A stretch of DNA of 64,000 bases from Gluconobacter sp. P1C6_b (lineage in GTDB: Bacteria; Pseudomonadota; Alphaproteobacteria; Acetobacterales; Acetobacteraceae). Location of the stretch: NCBI RefSeq assembly GCF_018811945.1, contig NZ_JACRVU010000013.1, positions 1 through 64,000 of the forward strand, written 5' to 3'. The position numbers and the translations under genes were made by a program. The notes under the pieces are model-generated. The model made no database searches. It was not told the origin of the DNA and saw nothing but the letters and a program-made list of their open reading frames with translations. Below, piece after piece: positions 50,905 through 61,235 of this stretch. Every line of letters starts with the position of its first letter. Position 1 is the first letter of the stretch.

Positions 50905-53900
50905 TTAACGAGGGGCAGCGGGCTGCTGCACCGGGAAGGCTTCGGGCTTGAGAACCGGACGCGGATGGTCGGCCATGTCCCTGCGGAGCCAGGCGATGGC
51001 GGCTTCAAGCTGTTGGTCCTCCCCGTTGAAGGTGGCGACCGGCATGTTCTCGACTTCGATGTCCGGGGAAACGCCCCTGTTCTCGACCAGCCAGTGTCCG
51101 TTCAGGTCGAAATAGGGGTTCTCGGCCGTGCGGGCATTGCCGTTGTCGATCAGACGATCTCCATCCGACAGCCAGACACCGGCGCCTGCCGTACGTTCGC
51201 CAAGCAGCGGGGCGATATGCAGGGACTTGATGCCTTGGGAGAAAGTCTCGCCGTCCGAATAGGTCATCTCATCGGACAGGACGATCAGGCGGCCCTGAAA
51301 GGACTGCTGCATGTCCACCGAAGGCGCATTGCCGTAGCGGCCCCAGAACATCCACGGGCGACGCATGAGCTGGGTCAGAACCCAGCTGTCGATATTGCCG
51401 CCCGTATTGCCGCGGACGTCAACGATCAGGCCGTCCTTGTCGATATTGGCATAGAACTCGCGGGCGAAGGCTTCCATGTCGTCACCGACCATGGACTGCA
51501 GATGCAGATAGCCGATGCGTCCGTGGCTGGCGCGATCGACGACATCCGCCCGGCCGACTTCCCAGTCCCGCGCCCGCAGGTCACGCTCCTTCATATAAGG
51601 AACGGGAGTTACGATGACCTTGTGCTCCTTTCCGGCGCGCGAGAGCGTCAGGAGAACCTGCTTTCCGGCCTGATCGGCAAGGAGCGAACCCAGATCGGGC
51701 TGTCCGGCCGTGGGCTGTCCGTTGACGGCAGTGATGAGATCTCCGTTTCGGGCATCCACACCCGGAGCTGCCAGCGGGGACTGCTGGTCCGGGAGGTCAC
51801 GGTCGCCCTGATAGATGTGATCGATGCGAAAGCCGTTGTCTTCATGCGTCAGATGCGCGCCAAGGCCCGCAATGAGGCTGGACGCGGGCTGATCGACCGT
51901 CGTGGGCGCATGGAGCTGCGAGTGCATGGCGCCGATTTCCGCGACCATTTGGCCGAGCAGATCGTCGAGATCCGCGCGGTCTCCGAGGCGGTCCACGAAG
52001 GGGGCGAAATGGGCACGGACGGCCTTCCAGTCCACACCGTGCAGGTCACGGTCATAGTAGTGGTCGCGATGCAGGCGCCAGGCATCCACAAATTCGTCCG
52101 ACCACTCCTGCCCGGGATCAATCCGCAGACGCAGATGGTCGAGCTCGATCTTCTTGCCGGCCAGTTCCTTGGGCTGTTTTTCGCCCGCAGGCGTAAGGAG
52201 CAGGTCGGGAGCATTCTTCCCCTTGCGGCTGAGGGTCAGCAGGGTCTTGCCGTCAGGCGTGATGTCGAAATCCGAGATCTTGGCAGCATAGGTTTCGATC
52301 TTGTGTTCGTTATTGTCGATATGGATCGACTTCAGATCGCCCGGACCATCGCCTGAGCCGGAATTGTCGATGGTGAACAGATACTCGTCAGAGACGCCCA
52401 GCCCTTCGTAATCACCGGCCGGGACGGGAGCCTGATACAGACGTGTCGCAAGGCCAGCCCATTCAATGGCGGGGAGTGCCTTTTTCTTGTCGGAGTCTTT
52501 CTTTTTGGCATCCTTCTTGTCGGCATCAGGCTTCTTGTCCGCCGGGTCCAGTTCGGTGGCGGGCTGGAACGGAAAGCGTTCGCCGGACTGAAGAGCCAGA
52601 GCGTAAATGCCGGTCCGTTTCGGGAAAGCCGGGCCGATATTTCGGTCACCCCAGGGCGAACCATTGGACAGCGAGAAGGTGCGGTCCGAAAGGAACCACA
52701 GCCATTTCCCGTCTGGCGAGAAGCTCGGCGTATAGGATTCGTAGCGTCCGTCCGTGACCCAGTTCGTCTGGCCGGTAGCTGGAACATAGAGCGCGATCTG
52801 ACGACGCAGGTTCGCACCACGGGTGCGCACGAAAGCCAGAACATGACCATCCGACGACCATGACAGGGAGTCGAAAACGTTGGTGCCGTCCTGCGTGGCG
52901 TTATCGACAAGCTTGTCGGCCTTCGTGGACAGGTCCGTCAGCCACAGCCGGCCCAGAAGATCGGTATGGGCGGCGTATTTTCCATCCGGCGAAAGCGACA
53001 GAATGACGGGTTCGGTCGGGGAGGGCTGGGTGATGGCCTCGCCCTTGCCACTGCCGTCTGCTGCAAAGCGCCACAGGGCGGAATCGCCGTTGACGTCGCT
53101 GAAGGCGATGACGGATTTGCCGTCCGGCGTGATCTGGGCGAGGCGCAGGCGCACATTGTCAGGCGTGGCGAGGACGACGACGCGTCGCGGCGAAGCCCCT
53201 GCGACGACGACATGTCCGCGCATGGTGAAGGCTGCGGTTTCACCTTTGGGAGAAAGAGCCGATGCGGTCAGGAAGCGCGTGGGCTTCTCCAGCCAGTACG
53301 GGCTGCGGGGCAGGTTGTCGGAGGTCAGGTCCACCTTGATGGGTGTGGTCTCGTCGCTCGCCAGATTGAAATCGAATAGGTCCGCGCCTTTGCGCATCAC
53401 GATATGATCGCCGGAAATGGAGGCTTCGAGGACACTGTAATCCGTGAAATGGGTAAGCTGTTTCGCGTCCGTGCCGTCCGTGGCGAGGCTCCACAGATTG
53501 TAACGGCCGTTCTCGTCGGAAATGACGATCAGTCGGTCGCGCCAGGGCATCGGGCGGATGAGGTTGGCGTCATGCGTGCCAATGCGCTCGGCTTCCTTGC
53601 CGTTCTGAAGATCGAAGCGCCAGAGCTGGGACAATGCACCGCCGCGATAGGCGCGCATGTGGTCGCCGGTCGTGGCGAGGCCGAAGCGGACGGCATAGAG
53701 CCAGCGTCCGTCCGGGCTGAGGGCAGCATCATTGACGCCCGACAGCGGAAAGACGTGTTTTGCGCTGGTTTTCGGATCAATGGCGGTGACGGTCTGGGTG
53801 TAATACGGCCCTGTGGCGGCGGGGGCGGCGTAGAGGATGCCTGCATGAGCGTCCCAGCCGATGATCTTCAGGCGGGCGACGTTCTCGAATGTCAGGCGCC

Positions 53901-54225
53901 GGGGCGTTCCGCCGCTGCGGGGCATGACATAGATTTCGGTCGGGCCATCGAAATTGGCGGCAAAGGCGATCTGGGTGCCGTCCGGGGACATGACGGGGTG
54001 CGGATCAATGGCGTTCGCACCCTGCGGTACGGTCGTCAGACGCTGGGCCTGCCCGCCAGCGAGGGGCACGCTCCAGACGGACTGTTCGGCATTGAACAGG
54101 ACGGTCTGGTCGGAAATCGAGGGTTCACGCAGATAGCCCGGCTCGGCCTGAGCAGCGCCAAGACTGAAGCCCATCAGGGCTGCGCAGGATAAAAGGGAGC
54201 TTCTGAGCGAAGGGCGTTTGGGCAT
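50905..54225 (-). CDS. tricorn-like exported S41 protease (1106 aa)
   Basis: Signal peptide MPKRPSLRSSLLSCAALMGF with cleavage near AQA-EP. Residues about 30-560 are WD40/TolB-type beta-propeller repeats (HPVMSPDGTQIAFAANFDGP; YTPSFSPDGKWLWFLSDRTF). A lysine/aspartate-rich linker near 575 is followed by a second domain, a PDZ region (about 830-900) and the C-terminal S41 protease with catalytic Ser about 990 in SDEMTYSDGETFSQGI. Archaeal tricorn has this order; bacterial homologues are exported. It probably degrades peptides in the periplasm. Confidence 0.92.
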   Translation of the reverse strand: MPKRPSLRSSLLSCAALMGFSLGAAQAEPGYLREPSISDQTVLFNAEQSVWSVPLAGGQAQRLTTVPQGANAIDPHPVMSPDGTQIAFAANFDGPTEIYVMPRSGGTPRRLTFENVARLKIIGWDAHAGILYAAPAATGPYYTQTVTAIDPKTSAKHVFPLSGVNDAALSPDGRWLYAVRFGLATTGDHMRAYRGGALSQLWRFDLQNGKEAERIGTHDANLIRPMPWRDRLIVISDENGRYNLWSLATDGTDAKQLTHFTDYSVLEASISGDHIVMRKGADLFDFNLASDETTPIKVDLTSDNLPRSPYWLEKPTRFLTASALSPKGETAAFTMRGHVVVAGASPRRVVVLATPDNVRLRLAQITPDGKSVIAFSDVNGDSALWRFAADGSGKGEAITQPSPTEPVILSLSPDGKYAAHTDLLGRLWLTDLSTKADKLVDNATQDGTNVFDSLSWSSDGHVLAFVRTRGANLRRQIALYVPATGQTNWVTDGRYESYTPSFSPDGKWLWFLSDRTFSLSNGSPWGDRNIGPAFPKRTGIYALALQSGERFPFQPATELDPADKKPDADKKDAKKKDSDKKKALPAIEWAGLATRLYQAPVPAGDYEGLGVSDEYLFTIDNSGSGDGPGDLKSIHIDNNEHKIETYAAKISDFDITPDGKTLLTLSRKGKNAPDLLLTPAGEKQPKELAGKKIELDHLRLRIDPGQEWSDEFVDAWRLHRDHYYDRDLHGVDWKAVRAHFAPFVDRLGDRADLDDLLGQMVAEIGAMHSQLHAPTTVDQPASSLIAGLGAHLTHEDNGFRIDHIYQGDRDLPDQQSPLAAPGVDARNGDLITAVNGQPTAGQPDLGSLLADQAGKQVLLTLSRAGKEHKVIVTPVPYMKERDLRARDWEVGRADVVDRASHGRIGYLHLQSMVGDDMEAFAREFYANIDKDGLIVDVRGNTGGNIDSWVLTQLMRRPWMFWGRYGNAPSVDMQQSFQGRLIVLSDEMTYSDGETFSQGIKSLHIAPLLGERTAGAGVWLSDGDRLIDNGNARTAENPYFDLNGHWLVENRGVSPDIEVENMPVATFNGEDQQLEAAIAWLRRDMADHPRPVLKPEAFPVQQPAAPR

Positions 54226-58175: not shown

Positions 58176-59120
58176 TCAGGCTGGCCGAGGTGCGGATGGA
58201 TCGTTGATGAGGGGCGGCACGAGCGTGGCCGTGTCCAGCGTTCCGTCAAATCCCTGACGCAGCACGCGGGACCAGCCGATCATCCAGCGATCCAGGGCAT
58301 CGATGAACTGGGCGGCGTCCGGATTCTTGTGAACCGAGGCCTTGTTCCAGTACTGCGGGGGGGCCAGAAGCTGGCGTGATCCGTGTTCGATCGGGGCGAC
58401 GAGCGTCTCTACCGTTTCGATATGAGCGGTGCCCTTGCCGGCCGCCGCCGCATAATACCAGCCGACATTGATCATCAGGCTCGGGATCGGGAAACCCAGG
58501 GTGCGCATCCGCGAAAACGCCGCCGTGATGAACGGGTCCGTGCTGACACTCTGGTTTTCGAGCACGGCATTGCTGGTGTAGCTGCATTCCTGCGACACGC
58601 CGGCCCTGTCGGAAATATGGGCCGCATAGTCGCGGTCGTCATGGCATGGCGTTTCGAGCTGCTCTGCCAGATCGGCGGGGACGGGCTGCTGCGTGGCGCG
58701 GACCACGATGACGCCGGAGACGACACCGCGATCCGTGCGGGCCAGAACCTGCTGGGACAGCTCACCATGCGCCCCGCTCCGGGCCGTCAGGATCGGATGC
58801 CAGTCACCCGCCGGAAGCGGCAGGGTGCGTCCGGCGATGGTGATGCTGCCATGCTGGGCAATGCCGGGATCGGGCACGCCGATCTGGTCCCCAAGACCTG
58901 GAGCGCCGCCGGGCTGGCCGCCCTGTTGCCCATCCGGCTGTGACGCGCCTGACCCCGCATTATAGGGTGCCGCCCCGGGCAGGTGCCCCGGAAGCCACGG
59001 CATGGCCTTCTTGAGCGCCGGGGTGGGATAGAAGGCGGCCATGCCGAGCGCGCCTACCGTTACGATCACGCTCGTGCGCCAGAGCGGCGCGCGTCGCCAG
59101 AGCCGTCCGAATGCCGTCAT
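58176..59120 (-). CDS. membrane-anchored hypothetical protein of the unfoldase trio (314 aa)
   Basis: A single N-terminal transmembrane helix (SVIVTVGALGMAAFYP, about 17-33) is followed by a glycine/proline/glutamine-rich linker (50-85) and a mixed alpha/beta domain that is probably periplasmic. It has two cysteines (ETPCHDDRDY and SQECSYTS) that could form a disulfide. No family recognised. It begins 3 nt after the AAA+ gene stop, so it is clearly co-transcribed. Confidence 0.75.
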   Translation of the reverse strand: MTAFGRLWRRAPLWRTSVIVTVGALGMAAFYPTPALKKAMPWLPGHLPGAAPYNAGSGASQPDGQQGGQPGGAPGLGDQIGVPDPGIAQHGSITIAGRTLPLPAGDWHPILTARSGAHGELSQQVLARTDRGVVSGVIVVRATQQPVPADLAEQLETPCHDDRDYAAHISDRAGVSQECSYTSNAVLENQSVSTDPFITAAFSRMRTLGFPIPSLMINVGWYYAAAAGKGTAHIETVETLVAPIEHGSRQLLAPPQYWNKASVHKNPDAAQFIDALDRWMIGWSRVLRQGFDGTLDTATLVPPLINDPSAPRPA

Positions 59121-59123
59121 GGA

Positions 59124-60398
59124 TCAGTGGCTCACCCGACCAAGCTGGGTTTCGGTGTCGCTGGCGATCTCGGTGACGACGGTACCGTCCTCCTGCGTGA
59201 CGAGACGGACGCGCTTGGCACCCTGCTGACGGGCCACGATGAGGCTTTCACTGACCATGTCCTCGATGGAACGGACAAGATCGCGCGCGCTGGCACCGGT
59301 GCCGAGGTTCTTCTGCTTGACCATGACCTGGAACAGAACGCCGGCATCAATGCCGCCGGTTTCCACATGCAGGCCGTAACCTTCGATCATGGCTTCGATT
59401 TCGAGTGCCGCCACGCGGGCCAGATCCAGTCCGCGCAGGGCACGGAAAATGAAAATACGGTCCAGACGGTTGAGGACCTCGGGGGCGAAGCCGGACTTGC
59501 GCAGGGCCTCCACCGACTCGGCGCGCATCTTCTCAGGCTCGTTGGCGAGACGGTCGGCGATTTCGGTGAGAGCCTCTGTCGCGACGTTGGACGTCAGCAT
59601 GAAGATCGCGCGGGTGGTCGAAACCTGTTCACCCGTGGAGGCTTCCGTGACATGGCCGTCGTTCCAGGCCGTGAGGAACTTCTTGAAGACGTCCGGATGG
59701 GCCTTTTCGATTTCGTCGAGCAGCACCACGGCATCCGGATGATCCTTGAGGCCGCCGGTCAGCTTGCCGAAGGTGTCGGACCCGACATAACCCTTGGGCG
59801 AGCCGAAAAGCTGGGTTGCGGCATGGGCGCTCGACATCTGCGTCATGTCGAAATGCAGCAGGGGGCGTTCCATCTGTTTGGCCATCTGCTTGGCCAGATA
59901 GGTCTTGCCGGTGCCCGGAGGGCCAGCGAGCAGGAAGATGCCGACTGGCTTGCCACGGACCTGAAGCGCCAGGCGGCGGCGCATCTGCTGGGCGATGTCC
60001 TCGCAGACCTGATCCTGTCCGATGACGCGGGCGCGCAGGGAAGCGGCCAGTTCGTCGGCGTCAATGACGGTTTCGCGCTGTTCGCGGGCCATGAGCTCTT
60101 CAAGGGCTCCGCGGTTTGTCAGACGGCTGAGAACATCCATGATGAGACCTTTCCTGCGGCGCAGTCCGCGACGCGCCAGTTTTTCGGCTGACGTTTCATA
60201 CGCCAGTCCCGTGACTGCCAGAAGGGCACTGATGCCTGCCAGCGGAAGATAGAAACGCCGCCCCCATTCGATGGCGGCCCACAGCCCGTTCAGCGACAGG
60301 TGTAGCATGACCGCGACCTGAATCACTGCCAGAATGAGGAAGGCCGCCATCATCAGCGGCATGGCCCGGTTGAGCATGGGAACGAGGGACTTGAACAC
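59124..60398 (-). CDS. membrane-anchored Clp/Hsp100-type AAA+ ATPase (424 aa)
   Basis: Two transmembrane helices (about 13-34 and 49-66) precede one AAA+ module of the ClpA/ClpB second-domain type. Walker A is GPPGTGKT at 159-166, the pore loop GYVG is at about 203-206, Walker B is VVLLDEIEK at about 224-232, sensor-1 asparagine follows LTS at 271, and an arginine-finger region lies in EVLNRLDR. A D2-type small domain follows. The pore-loop tyrosine is that used to thread polypeptides. No ClpP-docking IGF/IGL loop and no protease domain are seen, so it looks like an unfoldase or remodeller facing the cytosol. Partners are the flanking genes. Confidence 0.88.
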   Translation of the reverse strand: MFKSLVPMLNRAMPLMMAAFLILAVIQVAVMLHLSLNGLWAAIEWGRRFYLPLAGISALLAVTGLAYETSAEKLARRGLRRRKGLIMDVLSRLTNRGALEELMAREQRETVIDADELAASLRARVIGQDQVCEDIAQQMRRRLALQVRGKPVGIFLLAGPPGTGKTYLAKQMAKQMERPLLHFDMTQMSSAHAATQLFGSPKGYVGSDTFGKLTGGLKDHPDAVVLLDEIEKAHPDVFKKFLTAWNDGHVTEASTGEQVSTTRAIFMLTSNVATEALTEIADRLANEPEKMRAESVEALRKSGFAPEVLNRLDRIFIFRALRGLDLARVAALEIEAMIEGYGLHVETGGIDAGVLFQVMVKQKNLGTGASARDLVRSIEDMVSESLIVARQQGAKRVRLVTQEDGTVVTEIASDTETQLGRVSH

Positions 60399-60410
60399 CG
60401 GGGCGGTTCC

Positions 60411-61022
60411 TTACTGGACGATCACGTTGAGCAGGACGCGCTGGTCGAGCGTCATCAGGGCGGGCAGGGCTTCGGGACCGAGGGCTGTCAGCGCTCCGAT
60501 GGTCAGGGCCGGGGCGTGCGGCATGCTGACGGGTGCGATGAGGATCTGTCCGGCTTCGACAATGGGAATGACCAGATGCTGGAACTTGCCCGTCAGGACG
60601 ACGCGCTGTGTCAGACCCGAGACCGTGACGTCAATGGTCTGGCCAACCGCGCCAGACGCATCAAGCACCGGCATTTCCACGAGCCGCATCTTGCCATCCT
60701 TCACTGCCGCGAGGATGCGGGCACGGTCGGCAGGGCTGAAGCCGCTTTTTGCGAGGGCGGCTGACGCCTTTGCGGGAGGAAGCATGGAAAGCTGGACCGC
60801 GGCGGTCTGGGCAGCAGGTACGGCCGGCGTGCTTTGGGACGGCGGCGCGGCCGCAGGCACGGTCGGCGCCGCTGTATTATGCGTGTAGAAAAAGGCCCCG
60901 GCCCCGACCGTCAGGGCTGCGATCAGCCCGCCTCCGCCCCACAGCGCCCGACTGCGGGATGCCGGTTCGGAGGGTAGCGGCTGGGCGCGCGGTTCTGGAC
61001 GGGGCTCGTACTGGGAAGTCAT
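60411..61022 (-). CDS. single-pass membrane hypothetical protein of the unfoldase trio (203 aa)
   Basis: A proline-rich N-terminus (about 1-25), one transmembrane helix (ALWGGGGLIAALTVGAGAFF, about 27-46), a proline/alanine linker and a C-terminal domain of about 125 residues (GQTIDVTVSGLTQRVVLTGK). It is predicted to be exported to the periplasm. No family recognised. First gene of a three-gene unit: the AAA+ start is 12 nt after its stop. It is transcribed divergently from rimP. Confidence 0.72.
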   Translation of the reverse strand: MTSQYEPRPEPRAQPLPSEPASRSRALWGGGGLIAALTVGAGAFFYTHNTAAPTVPAAAPPSQSTPAVPAAQTAAVQLSMLPPAKASAALAKSGFSPADRARILAAVKDGKMRLVEMPVLDASGAVGQTIDVTVSGLTQRVVLTGKFQHLVIPIVEAGQILIAPVSMPHAPALTIGALTALGPEALPALMTLDQRVLLNVIVQ

Positions 61023-61175: not shown

Positions 61176-61209
61176 AGGCACATTCCATTCATCTTCCGCT
61201 CATTTGGGG

Positions 61210-61235
61210 GGTGGCCCTGACGGGCCGCCTTTTTT
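61210..61235 (+). terminator. terminator-like hairpin in the rimP leader (possible attenuator)
   Basis: GGTGGCCC (61210-61217) pairs with GGGCCGCC (61222-61229), an 8-bp stem with one G-T pair and a TGAC loop, followed by six T (61230-61235). It lies between the candidate promoter and the rimP start 3 nt later, so it cannot be serving an upstream plus-strand gene in this window. Confidence 0.7.

Follow-up and report, generated by a model that had tools for sequence, protein, structure and literature searches.

A three-gene unit in the 64,000-nucleotide stretch of Gluconobacter sp. DNA analysed here (the window) encodes a membrane-anchored Clp-type AAA+ ATPase, B, between two single-pass membrane proteins, A and C, and in several lineages of Acetobacteraceae the loss of A and the loss of the catalytic motifs of B go together. 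In our estimate there is about an even chance that the three proteins form one envelope machine, in which B is a non-proteolytic, membrane-anchored, single-ring remodelling motor, C its standing partner and A its client or adaptor. The superfamily of B, the Clp-type AAA+ proteins, is already known, whereas this architecture, the families of A and C and the repeated conversion of B to a pseudo-ATPase appear to be undescribed within the literature searched.

The genes are encoded on the reverse strand in the order A (60411..61022, 203 aa, one transmembrane segment), B (59124..60398, 424 aa, GTG start, two transmembrane segments and one AAA+ domain) and C (58176..59120, 314 aa, one transmembrane segment). 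A gap of 12 nt separates A from B and one of 3 nt separates B from C. The coordinates, strand and gaps given in a first-pass annotation of this DNA were exact on recheck. All three genes are conserved across genera, so the three open reading frames are not due to chance. The unit is flanked by a convergent amino-acid-type ABC transporter pair on one side and by divergent rimP-nusA on the other. Just upstream of rimP and on its strand, a strong terminator-like hairpin followed by a T-run was observed (61206-61233, +), for which no Rfam match was found. Since a similar-looking translated leader occurs in other genera, the hairpin may belong to a conserved attenuator or leader of rimP-nusA. Elsewhere in the window, 50905-54225 (-) codes for a tricorn-type protease of 1106 aa (PD40, Tricorn_C1, PDZ, and peptidase S41) with a likely signal peptide. 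The segment 54329-55626 (-) holds a CcmB gene, recognised by Pfam, and beside it an ABC ATPase that should be CcmA by position. An ORF of about 900 aa, an aconitase by eye, lies near CcmB in many other acetic acid bacteria and is missing here in Gluconobacter.

B consists of an N-terminal transmembrane hairpin (hydropathy segments at residues ~14-32 and ~49-67), a linker, one AAA+ domain of the ClpB/ClpA-D2 type and a lid domain. It matched PF07724 (AAA_2) with an E value of 3e-37 and 128.5 bits. The closest NCBIfam model was ClpB, at 170.6 bits vs a cut-off of 1232, and the match covered model positions 533-844 of 853, that is, the D2 part only. Walker A GPPGTGKT (residues 159-166, 59901..59924), the pore-1 loop KGYV (residues 202-205, 59784..59795) and Walker B LLDE (residues 226-229, 59712..59723) all lie on the reverse strand, with coordinates computed from the start of B, and the protein also carries sensor 1 TSN, Arg finger NR and sensor 2 AR. 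No protease family was found in B by Pfam or NCBIfam, and the ClpP tripeptide [LIVM]G[FL] was found between sensor 1 and the Arg finger in none of 95 orthologues. These results bear out the initial description of B as a two-TM AAA+ protein with a ClpB/ClpA-D2-like module, no protease domain and no ClpP-docking loop. Judged by its motifs, B is equipped to thread a polypeptide, not to cut it. Since D1, the N-domain, the middle domain, a protease domain and the ClpP loop are all missing, B would pull or remodel its substrate without degrading it by itself. Positive residues flank the transmembrane hairpin on both the N-terminal side and the AAA side; according to the positive-inside rule, B should be N-in/C-in with its AAA ring in the cytoplasm. 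With a cytoplasmic ring, A and C should in turn have short cytoplasmic tails and periplasmic domains.

A and C had been called single-pass proteins of no recognised family, and this agrees with our results, which gave one hydropathy segment for each and negative Pfam and NCBIfam scans. A is predicted to have a short Pro-rich cytoplasmic tail (residues ~1-28), followed by a transmembrane segment (~29-46), a flexible linker and a periplasmic domain (71-203). AlphaFold2, run from the family alignment, modelled residues 71-203 as an Ig-like beta-sandwich with pLDDT above 90 over most of its length. The nearest structures were generic Ig-like or CBM domains with Z at most 5.7; no more specific fold relative was found, which does not make the fold new. 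No Pfam or NCBIfam family reached its cut-off for A or C, and the same was true when 51-52 relatives were scanned one by one against Pfam. Matches of A to FliG_M (0.03) and SoxY_para (0.07), as well as to the phrog_1018 scaffold (0.0019, over the Pro-rich low-complexity part), were rejected as below cut-off or probably compositional. The cytoplasmic tail contains an acidic-Pro motif, [ED]P, in 42 of 52 sequences, vs 18.9 expected after shuffling and 1 of 52 in the periplasmic linker; the motif is weakly defined, and the 52 sequences share kinship. This tail motif is a candidate handle for B.

C has an N-terminal RLWxRAPxWR motif predicted to be cytoplasmic, followed by a transmembrane segment (residues 12-30), a disordered linker and a predicted periplasmic domain (79-294); the AlphaFold2 model from the family alignment comprises the transmembrane helix and this domain. 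The top VIA-align rows for C agree on the Mog1/PsbP/DcrB superfamily, at a level (Z near 8) that can be noise: Mog1 gave Z 8.3 with an rmsd of 4.1 over 151 residues, CyanoP 7.8, DcrB 6.7 and Tsi3 6.3. These values make a Mog1/PsbP/DcrB-like fold a weak match for the periplasmic domain. Cys159 and Cys179 are invariant in 51 sequences, which suggests that they form a disulfide in the periplasm. No Pfam family was found for C of the window and no NCBIfam family either, none was consistent among its 51 relatives, and no PDB sequence match was obtained.

The A-B-C order was conserved in all 80 loci of acetic acid bacteria. C followed B in 80/80, and A preceded B in 80/80 with a family profile vs 75/80 with plain tblastn. 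Within this group the rimP-nusA-infB neighbourhood is fixed. In seven other Acetobacteraceae loci (L207-L211, L218, and L219) the trio lies beside different genes, and no constant neighbour was found among the seven except between one related pair. Conserved order across Acetobacteraceae had been proposed as a check on the trio, and it held both in the 80 loci and at these unrelated sites, so that A-B-C behaves as a self-contained unit. The genes are on the same strand in every locus, and A and B overlap by 4 bases (ATGA-type) in 59 of 90. The occurrence of B was surveyed with its profile, scoring the top few AAA candidates per genome. Full-type matches came from 60 of the 249 Acetobacteraceae genomes sampled, spread over 26 of 102 genera. 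Among 289 genomes sampled across the class, the window's own was the sole match, and among 398 sampled across the phylum there were only two matches, both Acetobacteraceae. The genus g36 (2.0-2.5 Mb) and a few others are without B, and without C too where it was sought. Both were absent from five Acetobacteraceae genomes of 1.7-2.5 Mb (G061, G193, G291, G481, and G517), indicating that the whole unit can be lost even inside the family. On plasmids, a full-length B was found in Microvirga sp. VF16 alone (NZ_CP069357.1, L045; 42.6% identity over 92%). Directly after this B, an unannotated ORF of 64 aa (L045 21220-21414, +) resembles only the N-terminal motif and transmembrane segment of C (profile E 1.2e-5), suggesting that it is through these that C is linked to B. 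No A was found on the Microvirga plasmid, although its B keeps the catalytic residues.

The states of A and B were scored at 106 loci. The B motifs were intact and A was detected at 100 of them, a count that includes Saccharibacter sp. 17.LH.SD with its probably broken A, while the motifs were lost and A was not detected at six (L213, L214, L215, L216, L224, and L225); discordant loci numbered zero. A was not found elsewhere in the six genomes. The spacing between rimP and the B match was only ~280-330 bp in these A-less loci, with no A-like frame in the one that was translated. Walker A of the six decayed copies reads GPAGNGKK, GPKGTGKK, GPTGTGKN, GPAHTGKG or GPPSTGKT. All six have an altered Walker B and some an altered Arg finger, and the pore loop has been replaced by another sequence or is missing. 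Because the lineage-specific B changes differ and sister genomes are intact, five changes are needed on the NusA-InfB-RimP tree, and well-supported branches compel four of these; the C tree also needs four. The loss of A together with the catalytic loss of B arose in at least four lineages, probably five. Across the four independent pairs with branch support, A and the B motifs always change together (sign test p 0.125), and four to five independent events are too few for significance on their own.

The decayed B genes are not mere relics. The B frame is open in all six, and in the one close pair compared, L213 vs L224, dN/dS was 0.053 for B, 0.058 for C and 0.034 for NusA. The decayed B of this pair is under purifying selection, i.e. 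it is a conserved pseudo-ATPase. In intact pairs the catalytic block is one of the best preserved stretches of B (86-98% identity), but dead copies retain just 27-50% there, whereas the N-part of the AAA domain (residues 114-158) stays at 64-82% in four of five and the lid is also better kept than the catalytic block. C is kept in every B-bearing locus, including all six with a decayed B. All decayed copies come from reduced genomes of 1.9-2.4 Mb, so general gene decay could contribute. In Saccharibacter sp. 17.LH.SD (L074, also sampled as L223), sister to L213/L224, B is intact and the frame of A (L074 7416-7883 and following bases) is apparently disrupted after about residue 150, with the C-terminal half in another frame and an aberrant N-terminal part; this is one genome, in which an assembly error is possible. 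If the disruption is real, A was possibly lost before the B motifs. The intact B without A in Microvirga and the broken A of 17.LH.SD indicate that A is not strictly required for the B motifs to persist. What has been observed directly is the order of the genes, the translational overlap of A and B, the states of the motifs, their loss together with A and the open frame kept by B.

The simplest reading of these motif states would be two layers of function, an ATP-free B-C scaffold and a motor that requires A. The first-pass annotation proposed a membrane-bound remodelling machine with two periplasm-facing partners. That is still the best-supported reading, and the joint loss of A and of the B motifs in several lineages makes it stronger than before; it needs amending in that B is a pseudo-ATPase in some lineages and thus not always a motor. 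Ring assembly, topology, complex formation, the direction of force and the client are predicted in the following scheme. B would assemble into a Clp/Hsp100 D2-type ring on the cytoplasmic side of the inner membrane, anchored by its transmembrane hairpin. C would be the constitutive partner, docking through its RLWxRAPxWR motif and transmembrane segment, with its putatively Mog1/PsbP/DcrB-like domain working in the periplasm. A would take part in the step that depends on ATP and the pore by way of its short cytoplasmic tail, which B most probably engages, and B might pull A itself or use it as an adaptor. Constitutive docking of C and an ATP-dependent client or adaptor role for A are favoured because B appears able to thread and not to cut and because the A tail carries the acidic-Pro motif. 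Hydrolysis of ATP in the cytoplasm would in this way pull on the A tail and change a periplasmic assembly. Once A was lost, the motor function would no longer be needed, and B might decay to a pseudo-ATPase scaffold that still serves C. In its most specific form, this would be a family-specific transmembrane force machine, in which the Clp-type ring pulls the A tail and acts on periplasmic structures held by C, and in which evolution disabled the motor in four or more lineages, A being lost and the B-C scaffold retained every time. We put this form forward tentatively, as possible and short of probable.

The joint loss of A and of B catalysis would fit an obligatory activator equally well. A might activate B, as LAP1 and LULL1 do with Torsin, switching on the ATPase through the membrane while the client is another envelope protein, and B and Torsin both fall into the broad ClpB-D2-like group, B giving a weak Pfam Torsin match. 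However, the domain of A is an Ig-like sandwich rather than an AAA-like activator fold and, if the predicted topology is right, lies across the membrane from the AAA domain of B. We regard this explanation as unlikely.

Msp1-like extraction and quality control was also considered, in which B would remove unwanted inner-membrane proteins, A and C would be client receptors and a separate protease would follow. B is indeed a membrane-anchored threading AAA+ protein without its own protease, the unit is widely conserved in acetic acid bacteria, and these bacteria are rich in membrane-bound, periplasm-facing enzymes, all of which speak for such a role. However, it is not obvious why a general function should be dropped with one partner while C and a dead B stay, and the unit is absent from the other bacteria sampled. 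We consider general extraction rather improbable.

A role dedicated to assembling a respiratory or periplasmic oxidising complex, in which C would act like CyanoP/PsbP and A like a carrier or scaffold, seems quite improbable to us. It draws on PsbP and CyanoP among the top structural neighbours of C (Z 7-7.8) and on the weak SoxY/SoxZ-like resemblance of A. The fold matches are at noise-prone levels (Foldseek E 2.5e-3 at best), and no gene recognisable as a dehydrogenase or oxidase accompanied the unit consistently. That A, B and C merely share an operon without forming a common complex is hardly credible, given an order kept at unrelated chromosomal sites, the translational overlap of A and B and the linked loss of A and the B motifs.

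Several other identities were rejected. A link to type VI secretion was considered because B is a ClpV-like ATPase and the predicted fold of C resembles TplEi/Tsi3; B scored 146 bits for TssH/ClpV vs a cut-off of 885, and between the amino-acid ABC transporter and rimP-nusA no T6SS neighbours were recognised. For anti-phage defence, PADLOC models matched only the AAA region of B (best PDC-M37B, 1.8e-24) and neither A nor C, and the locus is fixed in acetic acid bacteria. A phage or plasmid origin was also rejected, as the best matches in viral collections were ordinary Clp-type ATPases aligning to the AAA part only and Microvirga VF16 alone carried a full-length B on a plasmid.

In a partial literature search, no published description of the architecture, the two partner families or the recurrent pseudo-ATPase conversion was found. 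The main text of the G. oxydans B58 knockout and rare-earth screens names no Clp or AAA gene, and no tie of A, B or C to the 2007 list of Acetobacteraceae signature proteins was established. Acetic acid bacteria are used industrially as vinegar, cellulose and vitamin C strains, and a unit conserved in them is accessible to ordinary genetics. If the proposed machine is real, a membrane-anchored single-ring Clp type with dedicated periplasmic partners would widen the range of architectures known for bacterial protein remodelling and would offer a possible way of carrying ATP-derived force through the inner membrane. The repeated loss of A with conversion of B to a pseudo-ATPase offers a direct handle on which functions require ATP and which need only the scaffold, and under the force-machine reading it would supply a ready-made set of active and pseudo-ATPase forms of a single AAA+ machine.

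Among known systems, the unit resembles FtsH with HflK/HflC in combining an inner-membrane AAA+ protein that has an N-terminal transmembrane hairpin with periplasm-facing membrane partners. However, B has no metalloprotease domain and no sizeable periplasmic domain between its transmembrane segments, it is of the ClpB-D2 rather than the classic AAA type, and A and C are not SPFH proteins. The FtsH identity was rejected, as FtsH_fam gave 18 bits vs a cut-off of 600 over the P-loop only and no peptidase family matched. Msp1/ATAD1 is likewise a membrane-anchored AAA ring without a protease, but it has one transmembrane segment, belongs to the meiotic clade and acts in eukaryotic membranes; two transmembrane segments and a score of 128.5 bits for AAA_2 vs 44.3 for AAA (PF00004) speak against this identity for B. 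Torsin with LAP1/LULL1 is similar as a ClpB-D2-like single ring with membrane partners, but it is lumenal, lacks a transmembrane-hairpin anchor and has partners of different folds, and the Pfam Torsin score of B (25.6 bits) is under the 27-bit cut-off. C resembles the DcrB/PsbP/Mog1 superfamily in its mixed alpha-beta domain (Z 6.3-8.3 over 107-152 residues, a noise-prone level), but it differs in its invariant Cys pair and transmembrane anchor and in having no sequence match, the family-level DcrB/DUF1795 and PsbP models included. The closest likeness of B is to the second ring of the Hsp100 proteins ClpB, ClpA, ClpC and ClpE, with which it shares the AAA_2 core, Walker motifs, GYVG pore loop, Arg finger and D2-small lid; the AAA_2 core, pore loop and catalytic residues that define the D2 type are all present. 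Membership in the two-ring class I (ClpB/ClpA/ClpC/ClpV) was rejected since the ClpB, ClpA and TssH models align through their D2 part alone, and a ClpP-partner unfoldase such as ClpA, ClpC or ClpX was rejected since the docking loop is absent in 95/95 orthologues. Clp/Hsp100 unfoldases are usually thought of as soluble. Unlike them, B is a single ring without N-domain, D1, middle domain or ClpP loop, and it carries a transmembrane-hairpin anchor and is accompanied by two membrane partners.
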